Shown here in pieces: positions 18,070 to 31,245 of a stretch of 47,188 nucleotides of DNA. Position 1 is the first letter of the stretch. Each line of letters begins with the position of its first letter. The stretch is taken from contig NZ_PKUB01000004.1 in assembly GCF_002868845.1 (NCBI RefSeq), forward strand, positions 1-47,188, written 5' to 3'. The translations under genes were made by a program, and so were the position numbers. The DNA is from Desulfuromonas sp. GTDB lineage: Bacteria; Desulfobacterota; Desulfuromonadia; Desulfuromonadales; BM501. The notes under the pieces are model-generated. The model ran no database searches. It was not told the origin of the DNA and saw only the letters and a list, made by a program, of their open reading frames with translations.

Positions 18070-19782
18070 ATGGCCAAAATTGAACTGCCCCCCCGGAAAA
18101 AGGTGCGCCACCTGACCCTGCTGAGGGAATCCCGGGCCATCACGCCCCAGGAATTCAACGCTCTCGCCTTCGAGGAGCGCATGGAGATGGTCCGTGTCGC
18201 TCATGGGCGACAAAAATACGATTTGATCCTCGATGCCCGGGACGCCGAACGCCTGGTGCAGCGTCTGCCGGCGCAGGAGGTTTACATCCTGATCAAGGAA
18301 CTGGGCAGCGAGGACGTTCCCGAACTCCTCGCCCTGGCCAGCACCGAGCAGTTCACGGCTTTCCTCGATCTCGACTGCTGGAAGGAGGACATCCTCGACG
18401 GGGAGGCTTGCCTGCGCTGGCTGCAGCCCCTCCTCGATGGCGACGATGAAGAGAGAGTTCTTCGGATGGCCCTGGAGCTTGACCTTGAGCTGCTGGCGTT
18501 GATGATGCAGAAGTGGGTCACGGTGACCTTCGGCCCCGAGGACTACGGGGACGACGAGGAAATGCAGGCCGCGCTGGCCGGTTCGGGGGGATACCAGCTC
18601 GAATACCGCGACTCGGAGAGCGCCAAGCTGGTCGGAGGTTTTCTGGAGCTCCTTTTCCGGCGGGTGCCCGAATTTTACGGGCGCCTTCTGCAGGGGGTGC
18701 GCTGGGAGATGACCTCTCCCCTGGAGGAGACGGTCTACCGTTTCCGGGCGGGGCGCCTTCTAGACCGCGGATTTCCCGATCCCTTCGAGTCCCTCGCCAT
18801 CTACAGCTACTTCGCCCCCGAGAGCTTCGAGGCGGACCGCTGCCGCAAGGTGGCGGTGGAGCCTGGGGAAAGGGGGGTGGAGGCGCCCGGATTCGTGCTG
18901 ACGGCGGCCTCGCCCCGAGACCTGCTGGCCGAGATCGTGGCCGGCGGCGTCGGCCCGGAAATCTGCTGGGAGCTGACCTACCTCATCAACAAGGCGATGA
19001 GCGCCGACCGGGTCGATGTGGGAGACGTCTCCCAGGTCGAGGCCGGCGCCGGAACGGTGTACCGCTACCTCAACATCGCCCTGGAGCACCTTTCCGGGGG
19101 GGACCTGGGCAAGGCGCAGGATCTTTTCGACGGGGTGGGCCTCGAATACCTGTTCCGACTCGGATTCAGCCTCACCCTGGATCTGCAGCAGCGCAGCCGG
19201 AAGGTCCGCCGCTCGGCCCTCGGTCCCTACCTCGATGGTCCCTTCCGGGCCCTGGTGGCGGGGCTGGACCGGAAAAAGCCCCAGTTCTTCTCCGGTATCG
19301 AGGATGAGAGCCGGGGCGGGGAGCGCCCCTTCGCCAACCTTTCTGACCTGTCCCGCGCGGGGCAGTGGCTGGATCGCCTGGAGGTCCAGCAGCGGCTCTT
19401 CGAGGAGCGTTTTCCCTTCGAGTTGCCGGTCCCCGAGGCTCTGTGCCTGGAAGGATGCCTTCCCGATGCGGGAGAGGATGTGGCCCTTTCCGAAATATTC
19501 CTCACCGCCCTGGCCAACCGGATCCTGGGGCGGGACTTTCTTCCCACCCCGATACCCGAGGAGGAGATTGCCGCCCTCCACGCCAGGGCCTGCGCAGGGG
19601 GGAAGGTGGTCGAAGATCTGCGCCGGGAAACTGTGCAATGGCTCGACTCCCTGGAGCCCGGCAGCGGGGCCTTCGGGGCCTATTGCCTCGACCTGTGGGA
19701 GGAGGAATTCTGTTCCCTTCGGCCGGACCAGCTCGACCCGCGCTATGTCGGCGGCATCATCGTCCGCCTGGGACCGGCCTGA
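18070..19782 (+). CDS. DUF6178 family protein
   Basis: 570 aa, no signal peptide, no TM segments, strongly acidic and leucine-rich. I recognise it as a DUF6178 protein, a family of unknown function common in Desulfuromonadales and relatives. The opening HLTLLRESRAITPQEFNALAFEERMEMVRVAHGRQKYDLILDA is typical, followed by helical blocks (ERLVQRLPAQEVYILIKELG, VPELLALASTEQFTAFLDLDCW) reminiscent of CBS/MgtE-N-like helical repeats. The C-terminal half has no motif I can name. AGGAG lies 9 nt before the ATG. The gene converges on the chemoreceptor gene with only 18 nt between stops. No function is proposed. Confidence 0.8.
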   Translation: MAKIELPPRKKVRHLTLLRESRAITPQEFNALAFEERMEMVRVAHGRQKYDLILDARDAERLVQRLPAQEVYILIKELGSEDVPELLALASTEQFTAFLDLDCWKEDILDGEACLRWLQPLLDGDDEERVLRMALELDLELLALMMQKWVTVTFGPEDYGDDEEMQAALAGSGGYQLEYRDSESAKLVGGFLELLFRRVPEFYGRLLQGVRWEMTSPLEETVYRFRAGRLLDRGFPDPFESLAIYSYFAPESFEADRCRKVAVEPGERGVEAPGFVLTAASPRDLLAEIVAGGVGPEICWELTYLINKAMSADRVDVGDVSQVEAGAGTVYRYLNIALEHLSGGDLGKAQDLFDGVGLEYLFRLGFSLTLDLQQRSRKVRRSALGPYLDGPFRALVAGLDRKKPQFFSGIEDESRGGERPFANLSDLSRAGQWLDRLEVQQRLFEERFPFELPVPEALCLEGCLPDAGEDVALSEIFLTALANRILGRDFLPTPIPEEEIAALHARACAGGKVVEDLRRETVQWLDSLEPGSGAFGAYCLDLWEEEFCSLRPDQLDPRYVGGIIVRLGPA

Positions 19783-25001: not shown

Positions 25002-25031
25002 CGGCAGGGCTGTGTCCCCTCAGCCTTGCCG
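25002..25031 (+). other. Hairpin abutting the glrK ribosome binding site
   Basis: CGGCAGGGCT pairs with AGCCTTGCCG (10 bp, one G-T pair) around a 10-nt loop, ending directly at the GAGG that serves glrK. It could end the radical SAM transcript partly or tune glrK translation. There is no T-run. Confidence 0.45.
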
Positions 25032-25037
25032 AGGCCT

Positions 25038-26483
25038 ATGCGATTCTACCGCCCCAAATCCTTTTTGATCCTGGTCCTGCTGGGCTTCGTCTTCGTCTCC
25101 CTGCCGCTGATCGTGGCCCTGGTCCATGCCGAATTCTCCATGGGGACGCTGGCCAAGCAGAGTGCCCAGGCGGTTTACCGCTCGGTCAACGCCACCCAGA
25201 GCGGCCGCATCCTGGTCGATAAAATTCTCGACCTCGAGCGCAAGGCCCGCCAATTCGACGTTCTCGGCGACCCCGGACTCATGGAGGACGTCTCCGCCAT
25301 CCACCGCGAAATCGAGAGGACCATGGCCCACCTTCTCGCCATTCCCCTCGCGAAGAGCCAGGTCAAACGCCTGGAGGCCCTGCAGGCCGGCGAACGCCGG
25401 GCGGTGGAGACTCTCCGTAACGAGCCGCGCGGCTCCGAACGGCAGAAGGCCTCGCTGCAGAGTTTCGCCGAACTTCATTCCCTGGCCAACACGGCCTACA
25501 CCGAGAGCTTCGACCTCATCGTGCGCGAGGTCGACGCGACCCAGAAGGCCACAGAAAGGGCCCAGCAGGTACTTCTGTGGCAGGCGGCGGCCCTCGTTCC
25601 CCTGGCGGTGCTGTTCGTGTCCATCTTCACTCATCTGATCTCCCGGCCTATCCAGCAGATCGACAGGGCGATTCGCCGCCTCGGGGAGGGGGATTTCTCC
25701 TCTCCGGCCCGGGTCGCGGGGCCGCGGGACCTGGAATTTCTCGGCGAGAGGCTGGACTGGCTGGGCAAGCAACTGGGCGATCTGGAACGGGCCAAGAGCA
25801 AGTTCGTGGCCCAGGTCTCCCACGAGCTGAAGACGCCCCTGGCGTCCATCCGCGAAGGAGCCGAGCTGCTCGTCGACGAGGTCGTCGGCCCTCTCAACGG
25901 TCAGCAGAGGGAGGTGACCCGGATTCTGAACAAGAACAGCCAGGAGCTGCAGAAACTCATCGAGAACCTTCTGGGCTTCAGCAGGCTCGGCGCGAAGATC
26001 GCCCCTCTGAATCCCGTTCCCGTGGAGCTGGACGAACTGGTGCGCAGGGTGCTGACCGATTACCGGCTGGTGGTTCGCAAAAAGAGCCTGAAGCTCGACC
26101 TGGACCTTTCCCCCGTGACGGTCCTGGGGGACCGGGAGCAGCTCAAGACGGTGGCCGACAACCTTATCTCCAATGCCATGAAGTACACCCCACCGGAGGG
26201 GCGCATCGCCATCATGCTCGGCAAGGACGGGGAGCGCGCATTGCTCGACGTGACCGACTCGGGCCCGGGCATTCCCCCCGAGGAGCGGGAGAGCGTCTTC
26301 GAGCCTTTTTACCAGGGACGGTCGGTCCCTTCGCCGGGCCATCTCAAAGGGACAGGCCTGGGGCTTTCCATTGCCCGGGAATTCGCTTTTGCCCACGGCG
26401 GCAGCCTGCGCCTGATGGACGAGGGCGAGCTTGGGGCCCATTTTCGGGTGAACCTGCCCTGCCGGAAAGGTGAGGAGGCATGA
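25038..26483 (+). CDS. glrK: Sensor histidine kinase GlrK (QseE)
   Basis: 481 aa inner-membrane kinase that phosphorylates GlrR. TM1 (about 8-30), a periplasmic helical domain (31-177), TM2 (178-200) and HAMP (200-252). The dimerisation helix carries VSHELKTPL with the phospho-acceptor His262. The catalytic domain has the N box NLISNAMKY, G1 DSGPGIPPEER and G2 GTGLGLSIAREFAFAHGG. The sequence FVAQVSHELKTPLASIREGAELLVDEVVGPLN is close to enterobacterial GlrK. I take the ATG at 25038 with GAGG 3 nt before it; a TTG four codons upstream has no ribosome binding site. The stop overlaps the next start as ATGA, and the order kinase-lipoprotein-regulator is the same as glrK-qseG-glrR in E. coli. Confidence 0.92.
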   Translation: MRFYRPKSFLILVLLGFVFVSLPLIVALVHAEFSMGTLAKQSAQAVYRSVNATQSGRILVDKILDLERKARQFDVLGDPGLMEDVSAIHREIERTMAHLLAIPLAKSQVKRLEALQAGERRAVETLRNEPRGSERQKASLQSFAELHSLANTAYTESFDLIVREVDATQKATERAQQVLLWQAAALVPLAVLFVSIFTHLISRPIQQIDRAIRRLGEGDFSSPARVAGPRDLEFLGERLDWLGKQLGDLERAKSKFVAQVSHELKTPLASIREGAELLVDEVVGPLNGQQREVTRILNKNSQELQKLIENLLGFSRLGAKIAPLNPVPVELDELVRRVLTDYRLVVRKKSLKLDLDLSPVTVLGDREQLKTVADNLISNAMKYTPPEGRIAIMLGKDGERALLDVTDSGPGIPPEERESVFEPFYQGRSVPSPGHLKGTGLGLSIAREFAFAHGGSLRLMDEGELGAHFRVNLPCRKGEEA

Positions 26484-27088
26484 AGCGTCGCGTCCTGATC
26501 ATGGTGCTGCTGCTGGCCGCGGTCCAGATTGCCCTGGGGGCAGGCTGCGCGCGCCTGGAAAACCTCCATCCCTTCGACTTCGGTGCTGTCGAAAAGGCGG
26601 CCCCGGCCCCTTCGGGGGCTGAAGAGGTCCTGATCTTTCTGCAGTATGTTCAGGGGCTGCCCGCGCAGGAGCAGGCGAGGGAGTACGACCGGTACCGGGC
26701 TTCGTTCGAGGAGAACGGGGCACCCGGGGACCGGCTCATCCTGGCCTGCCTGGCCCTTCTTCCGGGCAAGTCTTTCAGTGATCGGGAATACTCCTTGCAG
26801 TTGTTGGAAGGCTATCCCGGCGGCGGGTCCGTCGAGAAGGATGGCATGGACGGCCTGGCCGGTCTGCTCGTCCTGCTCGCTGCCGACCATTTGCGGGCCG
26901 ACGCGGAACGGGTTCGCTTCAAAAGGCAAAACCGGGTCTTGATCGAGAAGCTGGGGAGCCTCGACGAGCTGGAACGCACCCTGGAGCAGGAGCGGGAGCA
27001 TACCAGGGAGCTGTCCCGCCAGTTGAAGGAACTCAAGGCCATCGAGGACATCCTCACCGACCGCGAGCGGAGAGGAGTGTCTCAATAG
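26480..27088 (+). CDS. QseG-like lipoprotein of the GlrKR operon
   Basis: 202 aa. The lipoprotein signal peptide MKRRVLIMVLLLAAVQIALGAGC has Cys23 as acylation site. The mature part is helical, with RLILACLALLPGKSFSDREYSLQLLEGYP (a spacing seen in QseG) and a C-terminal coiled coil (EKLGSLDELERTLEQEREHTRELSRQLKELKAIEDIL). In E. coli, QseG is an outer-membrane lipoprotein that contacts the periplasmic part of GlrK and stimulates it. Sequence identity is low, so the assignment rests on position between glrK and glrR, lipoprotein nature and the helical region. The start overlaps glrK by 4 nt. Confidence 0.75.
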   Translation: MKRRVLIMVLLLAAVQIALGAGCARLENLHPFDFGAVEKAAPAPSGAEEVLIFLQYVQGLPAQEQAREYDRYRASFEENGAPGDRLILACLALLPGKSFSDREYSLQLLEGYPGGGSVEKDGMDGLAGLLVLLAADHLRADAERVRFKRQNRVLIEKLGSLDELERTLEQEREHTRELSRQLKELKAIEDILTDRERRGVSQ

Positions 27089-27099
27089 ACGGGAGTATC

Positions 27100-28455
27100 A
27101 TGTCCGCTGAAGCGAAACGCATCCTTCTGGTCGACGACGATCAGGACCTGCTGCGTCTTTTGTCCATGCGTCTGCAGAGCGCCGGCTACGAGGTGATCTG
27201 CGCCGAGAGCGGGGAGGAGGCCCTCGGGCTCTTTCCCGTCGCCCACCCCCACGTCGTTATCTCCGACCTGCGCATGGAGGGCATGGACGGCATGGCCCTC
27301 TTCGATGCCATCCGCACGTCGAACACCTCCATCCCGGTCATCATTCTCACCGCCCACGGCTCGATTCCGGAGGCCGTGGCCGCCACCAAGCGCGGGGTCT
27401 TCTCCTTCCTGACCAAGCCGGTTGACAGTAAGGGCCTGCTTCGCGAGATCGGGAAGGCCTTCAACCTGACAGCGGCGGGGGAGGGGGGCGAGGGATCCGG
27501 GCCGGAGGGGCTCTGGCGGCGGGAGATCCAGACCCGGAGCCCGGTCATGGAAAAGCTCCTGAGCCGTGCGAAACTGGCCGCGGAGAGCGACTCGAGCATC
27601 CTTATCCGCGGGGAGAGCGGAACCGGCAAAGAGCTTTTCGCCCGGGCGATTCACCGGGCCAGCCACCGCGCCTCGGGGCCCTTCGTGGCCGTGAACTGTG
27701 GCGCCATTCCCGATGCCCTTCTCGAATCGGAACTGTTCGGCCACACCAAGGGGTCTTTTTCCGGGGCGGTCAAGGATTACCCGGGGCTCTTCAAGTCGGC
27801 CCACGAGGGGACCCTCTTTCTGGACGAGATCGGCGACATGCCCCTCGCTCTCCAGGTCAAGCTGCTGCGGGTACTGCAGGAGAAACAGGTGCGCCCCATC
27901 GGGGCCACCAAGGCTTTTCCCATCGATGCGCGCATCATTTCGGCGACCCACAGGGACCTTGAGTCGGAGATTGTCAACGGCAATTTTCGCGAAGACCTCT
28001 TCTACCGGCTCAATGTCGTCTCGCTCGAACTTCCCACACTTTCCCAGCGGCGGGAGGACATCCCCCTGCTGGCCGATCAGTTTTTGCGTTCTCTGACGGT
28101 CAAAACCGGCAAAAAGGTCAACCGGTTTTCTTCCGAGGCCATGGAGGAACTGATGGCGGCCCAGTGGCCCGGCAATATCCGCCAACTGCTCAACGCCGTG
28201 GAGCAGGCCGTGGCTCTGGCCACAACCCCGGTCATCCCGGCCGACCTCCTCTCCAGCGCCATTCGGGAAAACCAGGAAAAGGTTCCCTCTTTTGCCGAGG
28301 CCCGTCGCAATTTCGAGCAGGAATACCTGGTGCGGCTGCTGAAGATCACCGGGGGGAACGTGACCCAGGCCGCGCGCCTTGCCAAGCGCAACCGGACCGA
28401 CTTCTACAAGCTTCTGCAGCGCCATCACATCGTTCCCAGCATGTTCAAATCCTGA
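27100..28455 (+). CDS. glrR: Sigma-54-dependent response regulator GlrR
   Basis: 451 aa. The receiver domain (6-120) has the acidic pair VDDDQD, phospho-acceptor Asp56 in VISDLRMEG and Lys106 in FLTKPV. The AAA+ domain has Walker A GESGTGKE (171-178), Walker B TLFLDEIGD (238-246), and the sensor and arginine-finger regions ATHRDL and FREDLFYRLNVVSLELP. The C-terminal Fis-type helix-turn-helix is LLKITGGNVTQAARLAKRNRTDFYKLLQRH. It matches E. coli GlrR along its whole length. The sigma-54 contact loop, normally GAFTGA, reads GSFSGA here (218-223). The ATG has GGGAG upstream and lies 12 nt after the lipoprotein gene. Predicted target sites lie directly downstream. Confidence 0.95.
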   Translation: MSAEAKRILLVDDDQDLLRLLSMRLQSAGYEVICAESGEEALGLFPVAHPHVVISDLRMEGMDGMALFDAIRTSNTSIPVIILTAHGSIPEAVAATKRGVFSFLTKPVDSKGLLREIGKAFNLTAAGEGGEGSGPEGLWRREIQTRSPVMEKLLSRAKLAAESDSSILIRGESGTGKELFARAIHRASHRASGPFVAVNCGAIPDALLESELFGHTKGSFSGAVKDYPGLFKSAHEGTLFLDEIGDMPLALQVKLLRVLQEKQVRPIGATKAFPIDARIISATHRDLESEIVNGNFREDLFYRLNVVSLELPTLSQRREDIPLLADQFLRSLTVKTGKKVNRFSSEAMEELMAAQWPGNIRQLLNAVEQAVALATTPVIPADLLSSAIRENQEKVPSFAEARRNFEQEYLVRLLKITGGNVTQAARLAKRNRTDFYKLLQRHHIVPSMFKS

Positions 28456-28484
28456 CCGCCTTTTCCCGTCTCCCCCCTTTGCGC

Positions 28485-28502
28485 TGTCGCTTGACGGCGA
28501 CA
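28485..28502. promoter_or_regulatory. GlrR-type enhancer site 1
   Basis: TGTC-N10-GACA, an exact match to the binding consensus reported for enterobacterial GlrR. Centre about 210 bp upstream of the predicted sigma-54 start. It lies 30 nt after the glrR stop codon. Confidence 0.6.
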
Positions 28503-28584
28503 TTCTCACCGTCCCTTCAGAAGGTCCCCCGCTCGCCCCTTGTTGCCGGTCCTTTCTGCAATTTCTGCCGAGTGTTCGTTGTTG

Positions 28585-28602
28585 CGTCGCCATTTGGGGA
28601 CA
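28585..28602. promoter_or_regulatory. GlrR-type enhancer site 2
   Basis: CGTC-N10-GACA, one mismatch to TGTC-N10-GACA. It lies exactly 100 bp from site 1 and about 110 bp upstream of the predicted sigma-54 start, a normal enhancer distance. Confidence 0.45.
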
Positions 28603-28627
28603 CTTTTCCGATTTTTTGGCCTCTGGA

Positions 28628-28667
28628 GGCCGGTCTTCGGAGCCCGGACGGCCTCCGGAGACCGGCC
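28628..28667 (+). terminator. GC-rich hairpin after glrR
   Basis: GGCCGGTCT pairs with AGACCGGCC (9 bp) and encloses a second short stem GGAG/CTCC. It is the only candidate end for the glrKR transcript before the sigma-54 promoter. It lacks a T-run, so it may instead be an element between enhancer and promoter. Confidence 0.4.
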
Positions 28668-28677
28668 GAAGGGCTTC

Positions 28678-28693
28678 TGGCATGCAGGTTGCT
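28678..28693 (+). promoter_or_regulatory. Sigma-54 promoter
   Basis: TGGCATG-CAGG-TTGCT, a full match to TGGCAYR-N4-TTGCW with GG at 28679-28680 and GC at 28691-28692, exactly 12 bp apart. The predicted start is near 28704, leaving an 83-nt leader to the small secreted-protein gene. It lies downstream of glrR and of two GlrR-type sites. Confidence 0.8.
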
Positions 28694-28786
28694 CCACAGG
28701 CTTTCATTCGGCCGGAATGCGGCCGGTTGCGATCATCCCCGACTTGGAGCGGAATCGCGTCCTGATATGCTGAAAAGGAGATTGCC

Positions 28787-29236
28787 ATGAGTCCAGGTGT
28801 TCGTCTCGGATTGGTTCTGCTCTGTGCTCTGGCCAGCGTGCTCGTCGCCTTCGCCCATCCCCTCCGGGGGGGGCAGGCGGGGCAGCCCCGGGCCGGGGGA
28901 GTCTCTTCGGTCGGAATCCACACCTCCCTGGTTGACGGATACCGGTTCGAGTACCGCATCGCCCATTCCCGGGCGGTCTACGGAAGTCGGCCCGGAGCCA
29001 GCCCGGAGTTGATGCTCGTCATCACAGACCCCGGCGGAGTCGGCGTGGCCAATGCCGCGGTCCGGTACATCGTGGTGGGTCCGGACGAGACCCGTCTGCA
29101 GGCAAGGGCCCTGCCTTTAGACGGGGGGTATGGGGCCGGGATTTTCTGCAAGGAGGCCGGAGCCTACCTGGTGGAGACCGAAGCGGTGACGGAGCGGGGC
29201 ATTCTGCAGGACCGTTTCGGGTTTGAAGTGCGATAA
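28787..29236 (+). CDS. Small secreted protein of unknown function, predicted GlrR target
   Basis: 149 aa. A signal peptide (about 1-23, ending LVAFA) precedes a compact domain of about 125 residues: FEYRIAHSRAVYGSRPGASPELMLVITDPGGVGVANAAVRYIVVGPDETRLQARALPLDGGYGAGIFCKEAGAYLVETEAV. The run of beta-strands and the alternating V-x-[IV] pattern suggest an Ig-like or YtkA/FixH-like periplasmic beta-sandwich, but no family is certain. A single Cys is present. AAAGGAGA precedes the ATG. It lies immediately behind the sigma-54 promoter, so it is probably induced by GlrKR, which in enterobacteria responds to envelope conditions. Confidence 0.8.
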   Translation: MSPGVRLGLVLLCALASVLVAFAHPLRGGQAGQPRAGGVSSVGIHTSLVDGYRFEYRIAHSRAVYGSRPGASPELMLVITDPGGVGVANAAVRYIVVGPDETRLQARALPLDGGYGAGIFCKEAGAYLVETEAVTERGILQDRFGFEVR

Positions 29237-29315
29237 GCGGGGGCCATTTTTAGCGTGCCCATATAATGAGAAGTTGTGGTAATGTAATGAGAAATACATT
29301 TACGAGGGGGGAAAG

Positions 29316-29996
29316 ATTAACTACCTGTTGGGCCTCTGCTGTCTGCTCGTGTGCGTGTTCGCAGCCCCGGCGGTGCCCGCCGCTGCGGACACGCTCTATG
29401 TCTCCGACCAGTTGGTCATTACTCTGCGTCAGGGCAAGGGGACTCAGTACAAAATCCTCAAGTCCCTCAAGACCGGTGACCCCGTCGAAGTGCTCGAGGA
29501 GGGTGAACGGTACCTGAAGGTTCGCGCCCGGGGCGGAGAAGAGGGCTATGTGCTCAAGCAGTACTTGAGCAGGGAAACCCCCAAGTCGAAGGTCATCTCA
29601 CGGCTGGAGAAGGAACAGCAGCGCCTGAAGGACGAATTGGCCAAGGCCCGGCAGCGCGGGGACGAGCTGACCGCACAGAGCCGGGACTCCGGAGCGCGGG
29701 CGAAGGGTCTCGAGCAGAGCCTGGGGCAGAAGGAAAAGGACCTGGGGACTCTTCGGGAGCAGTTCGAAGCCCTTCAGCGAAAATCAGCCGACGTGGTCCG
29801 GATATCCGAGGAGCGTGACAGCCTCGAAACGGAAAACACCCGCCTGCAGGTCGAGGCCCAAAGCCTTCGGTCGGAAAACGAAACCCTTTTGCGCACCGGC
29901 ATGATCAAATGGTTCCTGGCCGGAGGCGGGGTCTTTTTCATCGGCTGGGTGGTCGGAAAGGTGTCCCGCAAAAAACGCCGGGGCAGCTTCTCCTGA
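29316..29996 (+). CDS. SH3-domain membrane-anchored protein (TIGR04211-like)
   Basis: About 226 aa. A signal peptide (YLLGLCCLLVCVFAAPAVPAAA) is followed by a bacterial SH3 domain: TLYVSDQLVITLRQGKGTQYKILKSLKTGDPVEVLEEGERYLKVRARGGEEGYVLKQYL. A coiled coil of about 110 residues and a C-terminal TM helix (WFLAGGGVFFIGWVVG) with a basic tail follow. This is the SH3-plus-anchor family, usually of unknown envelope role. No ATG or GTG exists in frame before the signal sequence. An excellent GAGGGGGG lies 5-6 nt before an ATT (29316), while the first TTG (29328) lies about 17 nt away, so I favour an AUU start. A TATAAT at 29262-29267 may give it its own promoter. Confidence 0.82.
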   Translation: MNYLLGLCCLLVCVFAAPAVPAAADTLYVSDQLVITLRQGKGTQYKILKSLKTGDPVEVLEEGERYLKVRARGGEEGYVLKQYLSRETPKSKVISRLEKEQQRLKDELAKARQRGDELTAQSRDSGARAKGLEQSLGQKEKDLGTLREQFEALQRKSADVVRISEERDSLETENTRLQVEAQSLRSENETLLRTGMIKWFLAGGGVFFIGWVVGKVSRKKRRGSFS

Positions 29997-30108
29997 GGGC
30001 CGGCCGATTGCGCCGCACCCGTTTCGCGGCACCAAATTCGAACTCGCCGCTTCGTCCGGCGCCGGGGCCGACCTGCACCATCGAGGCTCTCCGGCAGATA
30101 GGTAGATC

Positions 30109-31245
30109 ATGGCAAAAGTCCTGCTCCTTGTCGGAGGCGGGCACGCCCATCTGAGTGTCCTCGCCGGGCTGAAAAAGGTGGTCAGAGGGGGGCACCGGGC
30201 GATTCTCGTCAGCCCCGGGGACTACCACTATTATTCGGGCATGGGCCCCGGAGTCCTGGCCGGGACTTACCGGCCGGCACAGGCCCGTTTTCACCTTCGG
30301 CGGATGGTACAGGAGCGGGGCGGGGTTTTTCTCAAGGGCGAGGCGGTGGGGATCGACCCGGAGCGGCGCACCGTGAGGCTGGCTTCCGGCGAAGAGTTGG
30401 GCTATGACGTTGTCTCCTTCAACGTCGGAAGCGAGGTGGTCGCCGACCGGCTGGAGGCGGCCGGAGAAGCCGTCGTCCCGGTCAAGCCGATCACCAACCT
30501 TCCGGCGGCTCGGCGGCGCATTTTGGAGGGGCTGGCGCAAGGGCCCCTTCGTCTGGTGGTGGTAGGAGGGGGCCCGGCGGGATTGGAGGTCGCGGGAAAT
30601 CTCTGGCGCCTCGGCCAGGCTGGACGGGGGCGGCTCGGCATCACTCTGGCCTCCGCCCACGGGCTGCTGTACGGCTTTCCTCCCCGGGCCGGGACCCTGG
30701 CCAGAAACTCCCTGGCCGCCCGCGGCATCCGGTTTCTGGAGGGAGAGCGGGTTCTGAAGGTCGCCGGGGGGCAGGCTCTCCTGTCGGGCGGCTCGACCGT
30801 GCCGTGTGACATCGCGATCCTCGCCGCCGGCATCCGGCCTCCCTCTCTGTTCGGAACATCCGGGCTTCCGGTCGGGCCCGACGGGGGGTTGCTGGTCAAC
30901 GATTATCTGCAGAGCGTCGCTTTCCCGGAAATTTTTGGCGGCGGCGACTGCATCCATTTTCAGCCCCGTCCCCTGGCCCGGGTCGGGGTCTACGCCGTGC
31001 GCCAGAACCCCATCCTCTTCCACAACCTGCGGGCCGCCCTCGGTGGGGGAGCACTCAGGCCGTTTCGGCCGCAGAAGGATTACATGCTCATCTTTAACCT
31101 GGGGGACGGCCGGGGTATCCTGCGCCGCAAGGGCTGGGTGTGGGACGGTCATCCCGCCTGCCTGTTCAAGGACTGGATCGACCGTCGCTTCATGAAGAAA
31201 TTTCAGCTCTCCGGCGAAGCCCGGGAGGCGGGGGACGATATTTAA
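30109..31245 (+). CDS. FAD-dependent pyridine nucleotide oxidoreductase (NDH-2-like)
   Basis: 378 aa. Two-dinucleotide-binding flavoprotein: the FAD motif VLLLVGGGHAHLSVL at the N-terminus, the NAD(P)H motif LVVVGGGPAGLEVAGNLWRLG in the middle and the second FAD contact IFGGGDCIHF near residue 285. There is no redox-active CxxC, so it is not a disulfide reductase. It fits the NADH:quinone oxidoreductase type II/sulfide-quinone reductase-like group, and the GGGHAH start is typical of the branch also fused to SelD in other organisms. No membrane helix is predicted; attachment would be peripheral. The stop overlaps that of the convergent acpH gene. Physiological acceptor unknown. Confidence 0.85.
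   Translation: MAKVLLLVGGGHAHLSVLAGLKKVVRGGHRAILVSPGDYHYYSGMGPGVLAGTYRPAQARFHLRRMVQERGGVFLKGEAVGIDPERRTVRLASGEELGYDVVSFNVGSEVVADRLEAAGEAVVPVKPITNLPAARRRILEGLAQGPLRLVVVGGGPAGLEVAGNLWRLGQAGRGRLGITLASAHGLLYGFPPRAGTLARNSLAARGIRFLEGERVLKVAGGQALLSGGSTVPCDIAILAAGIRPPSLFGTSGLPVGPDGGLLVNDYLQSVAFPEIFGGGDCIHFQPRPLARVGVYAVRQNPILFHNLRAALGGGALRPFRPQKDYMLIFNLGDGRGILRRKGWVWDGHPACLFKDWIDRRFMKKFQLSGEAREAGDDI

Follow-up and report, generated by a model that had tools for sequence, protein, structure and literature searches.

The targets of the GlrKR two-component system are mainly known from enterobacteria, where they are glmY and rpoE. The enterobacterial system is encoded in the order kinase, lipoprotein, regulator (GlrK-QseG-GlrR, or QseEGF), and the available part of one study describes how GlrR drives glmY, a local target, from sites with the consensus TGTN12ACA and a sigma-54 promoter, assisted in E. 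coli by IHF (PMC6075780). The occurrence of glrKR in beta- and deltaproteobacteria and in Nitrospira is already in print, as the accessible text of PMC8895600 indicates, and the qseEGF cluster is reported in the part available of PMC12691602 to be widespread, with the Beta- and Gammaproteobacteria and the Acidithiobacillia as the groups named. Desulfuromonadales are absent from the groups named in that part of PMC12691602, which likewise describes neither conserved local sites nor exchanged outputs for these clusters. A search of the open-licence literature found no conserved site pair and no exchanged outputs in print. A second point of comparison is MgrB-PhoQ, in which, according to the parts available of PMC8404706 and PMC2789325, a small membrane protein is made under its own two-component system.

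The window, by which is meant the whole analysed stretch of 47,188 nucleotides from a member of the Desulfuromonadales (Desulfuromonas sp.), carries a comparable block of genes followed by a compact regulatory segment (Table 1). With a probability of roughly 0.87, this segment is the enhancer-promoter unit of the GlrK-QseG-GlrR system and drives the gene of a small membrane-anchored protein. From the sites, the promoter, the gene order and their conservation we infer that phosphorylated GlrR would bind the two palindromes that follow glrR and, as the DNA loops with the sites on the correct helical face, would activate a sigma-54 promoter that transcribes the 149-aa protein gene and possibly the SH3 gene behind it. 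It is very likely on these grounds that GlrR and sigma-54 control the 149-aa protein gene. The locus differs from the enterobacterial glmY unit in that the unit lies behind glrR and not before glrK, and in that the output is a protein gene; GlmY (RF00128) was not found in the window's genome at E 0.001, while the E. coli control was positive. In contrast to E. coli glmY, the interval between site 2 and the promoter contains no IHF-like site, the best match to the IHF consensus having 3 mismatches.

Table 1. Features of the glrR region in the window.
Feature	Position	Strand	Basis and remarks
Sensor kinase gene, GlrK/QseE-like (HAMP, HisKA, HATPase)	25026..26483	+	Pfam
QseG-like lipoprotein gene, lipobox GAGC	26480..27088	+	Profile comparison; between kinase and regulator
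glrR (receiver, sigma-54 AAA+, HTH)	27100..28455	+	Pfam, NCBIfam
GlrR-type site 1, TGTCGCTTGACGGCGACA	28485..28502	.	Sequence, pattern count, order comparison
GlrR-type site 2, CGTCGCCATTTGGGGACA	28585..28602	.	94 bp from -24 GG
Strong inverted repeat, site 2 / promoter interval	28618..28675	.	Folding
Sigma-54 promoter -24/-12, TGGCATGCAGGTTGCT	28678..28693	+	Pattern scan, spacing comparison
Predicted leader	28704..28786	+	Start inferred from -12 element; AAGGAG at 28775-28780
149-aa output protein gene	28787..29236	+	ORF; helix residues 3-23, then predicted beta domain
TIGR04211 SH3-plus-anchor protein, next gene	29328..29996	+	NCBIfam; start codon uncertain

The best NCBIfam model for the window regulator is GlrR, at 622.7 bits and under the 763-bit cut-off of that model. 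Its helix-turn-helix domain is 54-74% identical to those of 18 orthologues outside the order, and the recognition-helix motif NRT.FY.LL is shared by 26 of the 27 other orthologues read, among them the enterobacterial ones, and is absent from 11 paralogues; the exception (L022) reads NRSDFNKLL. Judged by its sequence, the window regulator is an NtrC-type GlrR orthologue with the common recognition helix. A HAMP histidine kinase is encoded upstream of it, and homologues of this kinase hold the same place ahead of glrR in the loci of the order. The gene between kinase and regulator encodes a protein with a lipobox; it matches neither an NCBIfam family nor a relevant Pfam family. A profile of the order's lipoproteins matches a profile of beta- and gammaproteobacterial glrR neighbours (probability 99, E 3.5e-18), and the latter matches enterobacterial QseG (95.3, E 2.4e-8); the direct comparison of the order's profile with enterobacterial QseG is weak (probability 19.6). 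The profile sets were compiled automatically, and two or more of their ORFs (L140 and L029 among them) are probably wrong. The lipobox and this profile link, which runs solely via the beta- and gammaproteobacterial intermediates, point to a QseG-like lipoprotein. Further downstream, a homologue of the SH3 gene follows in 18 of the 29 other order loci; in the window this gene may have a promoter of its own, given a TATAAT at 29262-29267.

The preliminary description of the segment had named a TGTC-N10-GACA palindrome, a CGTC-N10-GACA palindrome 100 bp further on, a full-consensus -24/-12 element, an 83-nt leader and a 149-aa ORF. Both palindromes are present, exactly 100 bp apart, as is the ORF with AAGGAG ahead of it, and the length of the leader agrees arithmetically with a predicted start near 28704. 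The promoter element lies where it was placed with GG and GC correctly spaced, but it has one mismatch to TGGCACN5TTGCW, so that 'full consensus' was slightly overstated. As at glmY, at least two TGTN12ACA-type sites lie upstream of a sigma-54 promoter, site 2 (CGTN12ACA) being one base off the consensus. Taken singly, the elements of the window are unremarkable and weakly above chance: exact TGTCN10GACA occurs twice against 0.42 expected (at least two in 6 of 100 shuffles), and the promoter pattern with up to one mismatch occurs twice against 0.89 expected (at least two in 21 shuffles). The case therefore rests on comparison; the arrangement and its conservation do stand out. The second exact TGTCN10GACA of the window, a perfect GlrR-type palindrome at 18195-18212, lies inside an ORF (18070-19782), and no promoter of the searched type was found in the surrounding 3.5 kb. 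The interval between site 2 and the promoter holds an inverted repeat (-45.7 kcal/mol, z -3.0) that is single-copy in the genome and lacks the T-run of a terminator; the interval folds at -43.4 against -28.7 for the next strongest among 17 other loci.

Of 136 genomes of the order, 30, the window's own included, have a match to GlrR at E <= 1e-150; a further genome, G046, was missed at this threshold because its GlrR match is interrupted. For the resulting set (the window plus 29 loci), sites were scored with the motif TGTCKCYN4RGMGACA. With up to three mismatches allowed, at least two sites lie within 350 nt after glrR in 27 of the 30 loci, against a shuffled mean of 0.18; with up to two, the count is 20 of the 30 and the shuffled mean 0.000. 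The motif was drawn partly from sequences of the order, and a control with paralogous activators therefore matters: among 48 paralogous loci, none had a pair within 350 nt at up to three mismatches and none had a pair anywhere at up to two. Chance as the source of the sites is rejected on the shuffles and the paralogous loci, and not on the window alone. At up to three mismatches of 13, a promoter lies within 500 nt in 23 of the 30 order loci and 5 of the 48 paralogous ones (shuffled mean 2.48); at up to two, it does so in 17 and 4 of them, respectively (mean 0.42). The site pair after glrR is absent in three order loci (L137, L156, L157); two others (L133, L151) have the sites and neither a recognized promoter nor an output gene, and L139 has the sites and an output protein of the kind described below with no recognized promoter. 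As far as sequence allows, the sites and the promoter are thus kept beside glrR orthologues in relatives, which is what the preliminary description had proposed to check.

The distance from site 2 to the -24 GG in 18 order loci falls at 82-83, 91-94, 101-104 or 112 bp, in steps of about one helical turn; the distances for L134 and L138 use promoters with 4 mismatches of 13. The Rayleigh statistic for a period of 10.5 bp is R 0.825 (n 18) in the order and R 0.69 (p about 0.003) among 12 genus representatives. Five more order loci have their promoter 172-268 bp from site 2, and with these included R is 0.610 (n 23, p 0.0002). L155, which has three site-like matches, the nearest at 106 bp, was left out; its inclusion gives R 0.779 (n 19). 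Loci outside the order give R 0.585 (n 14, p about 0.008) with a preferred phase nearly that of the order, and addition of five upstream plus-strand units at 108-128 bp gives R 0.508 (n 19, p 0.007). These tests are post hoc and their p values count relatives as independent. The phasing agrees with looping of an enhancer on one helical face.

The arrangement is also found outside the order. A further 31 GlrR orthologues with identities of 52% or more were compared: 11 carry a pair at up to two mismatches within 350 nt after glrR, and 21 carry one anywhere in the locus. One of these loci, L020, and the order locus L149 belong to one genome, and L020 is therefore dropped from the figures for outside the order, which become 10 of 30 and 20 of 30. 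The ten loci with no pair at up to two mismatches are L022, L023, L024, L026, L030, L031, L037, L046, L047 and L049, of which L023, L024, L037 and L046 have a pair at up to three. In L053 the pair lies 668 bp behind glrR and no promoter was seen. A site pair with a sigma-54-type promoter stands beside glrR or glrK in loci of Nitrospirota, Desulfobulbaceae, Beta- and Gammaproteobacteria, and the outputs differ. The gene behind the promoter encodes a BON-domain protein in L029, L033, L034, L041 and L048, an EF-hand protein in L027 and L043, EF-hand plus BON in L023, a fibronectin-type protein in L028 and a protein without family in L025; a bactofilin gene is the output on the opposite strand before glrK in L029, L040 and L045. 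In 3 of the 15 loci scanned with Rfam (L037, L038, L042), glmY lies before glrK and behind a site pair. No output was assigned for L021 (contig end), L024, L032, L035, L036, L039, L044 and L046. The same cis-unit recurs over several phyla with its output gene exchanged: glmY in enterobacteria, genes for BON, EF-hand or bactofilin proteins in beta- and gammaproteobacteria, and the gene of a GQxG protein or, in a single genus, a putative small RNA in the Desulfuromonadales. The earlier proposal was that GlrKR acts in this lineage on a local protein gene in place of glmY. This is the best reading, since the sites and the promoter are conserved and GlmY was not found in the genome; local control is not peculiar to the lineage, as site pairs occur in several phyla.

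In 20 of the 29 other order loci, the gene behind the promoter encodes a protein that begins with an arginine, a hydrophobic helix and the motif [AV]GQxG; in L130 this protein is encoded by the second gene behind the promoter. Nine of these 20 proteins are long (145-171 aa) and eleven short (63-76 aa), one of the latter (L146) possibly being frameshifted. The window protein is a long, diverged form that is 27-45% identical to the nine other long forms and has a 5-residue insert ahead of GQxG. Across the eleven short proteins, two long ones and the window protein, the invariant columns all belong to the N-terminal segment: R, L, A, G, Q and G. In five short proteins (group B), pN/pS is 0.00-0.14 for codons 11-40 against 0.17-0.72 for codons 41-63, and in five others (group A) it is 0.11-0.32 for codons 1-32 against 0.33-1.29 for the tail, where the alignment is rough. 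In these ten short proteins (63-68 aa), purifying selection acts far more strongly on the start than on the tail. What is conserved in the predicted output protein across the order is the N-terminal helix plus GQxG. Constraint of this degree would be surprising in an ordinary cleaved signal, and the helix of the 149-aa protein, described earlier as secreted, may serve as a membrane anchor and stay uncleaved.

Several relatives of the output gene lie in other settings. In G046 (contig C21, L187), a 30-aa ORF behind glrR has a ribosome-binding site and consists of the conserved helix and AGQ segment only; the promoter ahead of it misfits the spacing searched. A homologue of the 149-aa protein in G055 (contig C3, L188) lies directly behind a radical-SAM gene and retains the beta domain, with GGRVS as the motif; the glrK-qseG-glrR block is absent at that place, and the gap contains no sites or consensus promoter. 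Homologues away from glrR also occur in G050 (contig C3, L010/L183) and G046 (contig C330, L017), where a site-like palindrome with 2-3 mismatches lies 106 and 103 bp, respectively, from a sigma-54-type promoter. In the last of these a TolQ-like gene follows.

What the output protein does can be read in two ways. It could act in the envelope as an effector, anchored and Ig-like in the manner of YtkA/CrdA/CopC, with a protecting or sensing role in the periplasm such as BON and EF-hand outputs may have in other lineages; we consider this plausible at somewhat less than even odds. The structure model of the window protein, with a helix at residues 3-23 followed by beta strands, matches H. pylori CrdA (TM 0.54/0.71, E 7.2e-6), DUF4426 and FetP/P19, and a location in the envelope is also predicted for several of the output proteins of other lineages. 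The match to these periplasmic Ig-like domains is at the level of the fold and concerns the C-terminal part, and the model, computed from a single sequence, has low confidence (pLDDT 64). At the level of sequence, the matches stay below threshold: the window protein does not match the YtkA family (PF13115), three of ten members do so weakly (best E 0.02), and Big_1 is matched by two of ten (0.027). The remaining weak Pfam matches, each in one member, are unlike in kind (haemocyanin beta-sandwich, 0.0023; cNMP-binding, 0.014), and a profile search of solved structures gave no relevant match. The earlier statement that the window protein belongs to no recognized family holds by sequence for Pfam and NCBIfam. 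An effector role sits less easily with the 11 of 20 family members that are short and lack the C-terminal domain (again with L146 possibly frameshifted) and with the family alignment (A1), which has no invariant His, Cys or Met.

Alternatively, the output could act as a small regulator in the membrane and exert feedback on GlrK or QseG in the manner of MgrB on PhoQ, with the helix and GQxG as the active part and the C-terminal domains as accessories. No sequence likeness to MgrB is claimed, and the feedback is hypothetical; we weigh it slightly below the envelope effector, as a tentative reading. It is consistent with the short forms and the 30-aa ORF of G046, which keep helix and GQxG and little else, with the lower pN/pS of this start in groups A and B, and with a gene position next to the kinase and behind sites for its regulator. 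In G055, where no kinase block lies alongside, the motif has become GGRVS though the beta domain stays. The window copy, however, has its 5-residue insert before GQxG despite the presence of GlrK, and the conserved segment could equally be a sorting or anchoring signal.

A different possibility is that the promoter makes a small regulatory RNA from the leader and that the protein is incidental, as might be suggested by the enterobacterial case, in which GlrR drives glmY (PMC6075780, in the part available). Four order loci labelled g14 (L135, L140, L119 and L155, in genomes G030, G013, G085 and G050, respectively) lend it some support, as they have no GQxG protein and instead share a conserved stem-loop of ~37 nt with a T-run that begins 30-89 nt after the predicted start, behind the sites and the promoter. 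This element, which has no Rfam match at cut-off, is putatively a GlrR-driven small RNA that replaces the protein in one genus. It is found as a single copy per genome in 4 of the 136 order genomes and in none of the other 132, the window's genome included. In the window, the leader carries a good ribosome site ahead of a conserved ORF, and an Rfam scan of 28400-30200 gave nothing above cut-off. A small RNA in the window leader was rejected as a candidate, and we regard the RNA reading as improbable. Least probable of all, and very remote, is that another enhancer-binding protein serves the promoter, to which the palindromes beside glrR would bear no relation: a GlrR query of the genome returned 101 first-look candidates, so that many activators of that kind are likely present, and a promoter-like site occurs in 4-5 of the 48 paralogous loci too, but the site pairs lie beside glrR orthologues and beside none of the 48 paralogues, site 1 fits the E. 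coli consensus TGTN12ACA (PMC6075780, in the part available) and the glmY loci, and the promoter and site 2 are phased.

GlrR may have a further target in the same genome. On contig C41 at ~11.7-12.1 kb, minus strand (L182/L175), two sites and a promoter at 92 bp precede an ExbB/ExbD operon, and the same arrangement occurs in G046 (L190) with the promoter at 94 bp. A search for this ExbB at 1e-50 was positive in 2 of 134 genomes, both with the site-promoter unit, and a second GlrR unit before the ExbB/ExbD operon is likely. A c-di-GMP-I riboswitch with a sigma-54-like element of its own lies just upstream of this unit in the window's genome. Prediction of a genome-wide regulon by pattern alone was uninformative, the pattern giving 78 matches per strand at up to one mismatch against 85 for a control pattern; a site at C12:24097 has no promoter of the searched type, and a possible pair at C11:1536/1734 shows no convincing arrangement.

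GlrR/sigma-54 control of a local gene for a small membrane-anchored protein can be extended to a wider proposal, in which the enhancer pair is of ancient origin and serves as a portable port for local output, into which the Desulfuromonadales plug a kinase-feedback membrane microprotein of a family not described before (helix plus GQxG, down to 30 aa) and other lineages plug BON, EF-hand, bactofilin or independently arisen small-RNA genes. In this combined form the proposal is doubtful. If it is true, the control element would long predate its use at glmY, with repeated exchange of the output, which suggests that an envelope protein, and not a small RNA, may have been the ancestral output. It would also provide testable GlrR targets in many bacteria and, if the reading holds, bring to light a family of membrane microproteins under strong selection beside a sensor kinase.
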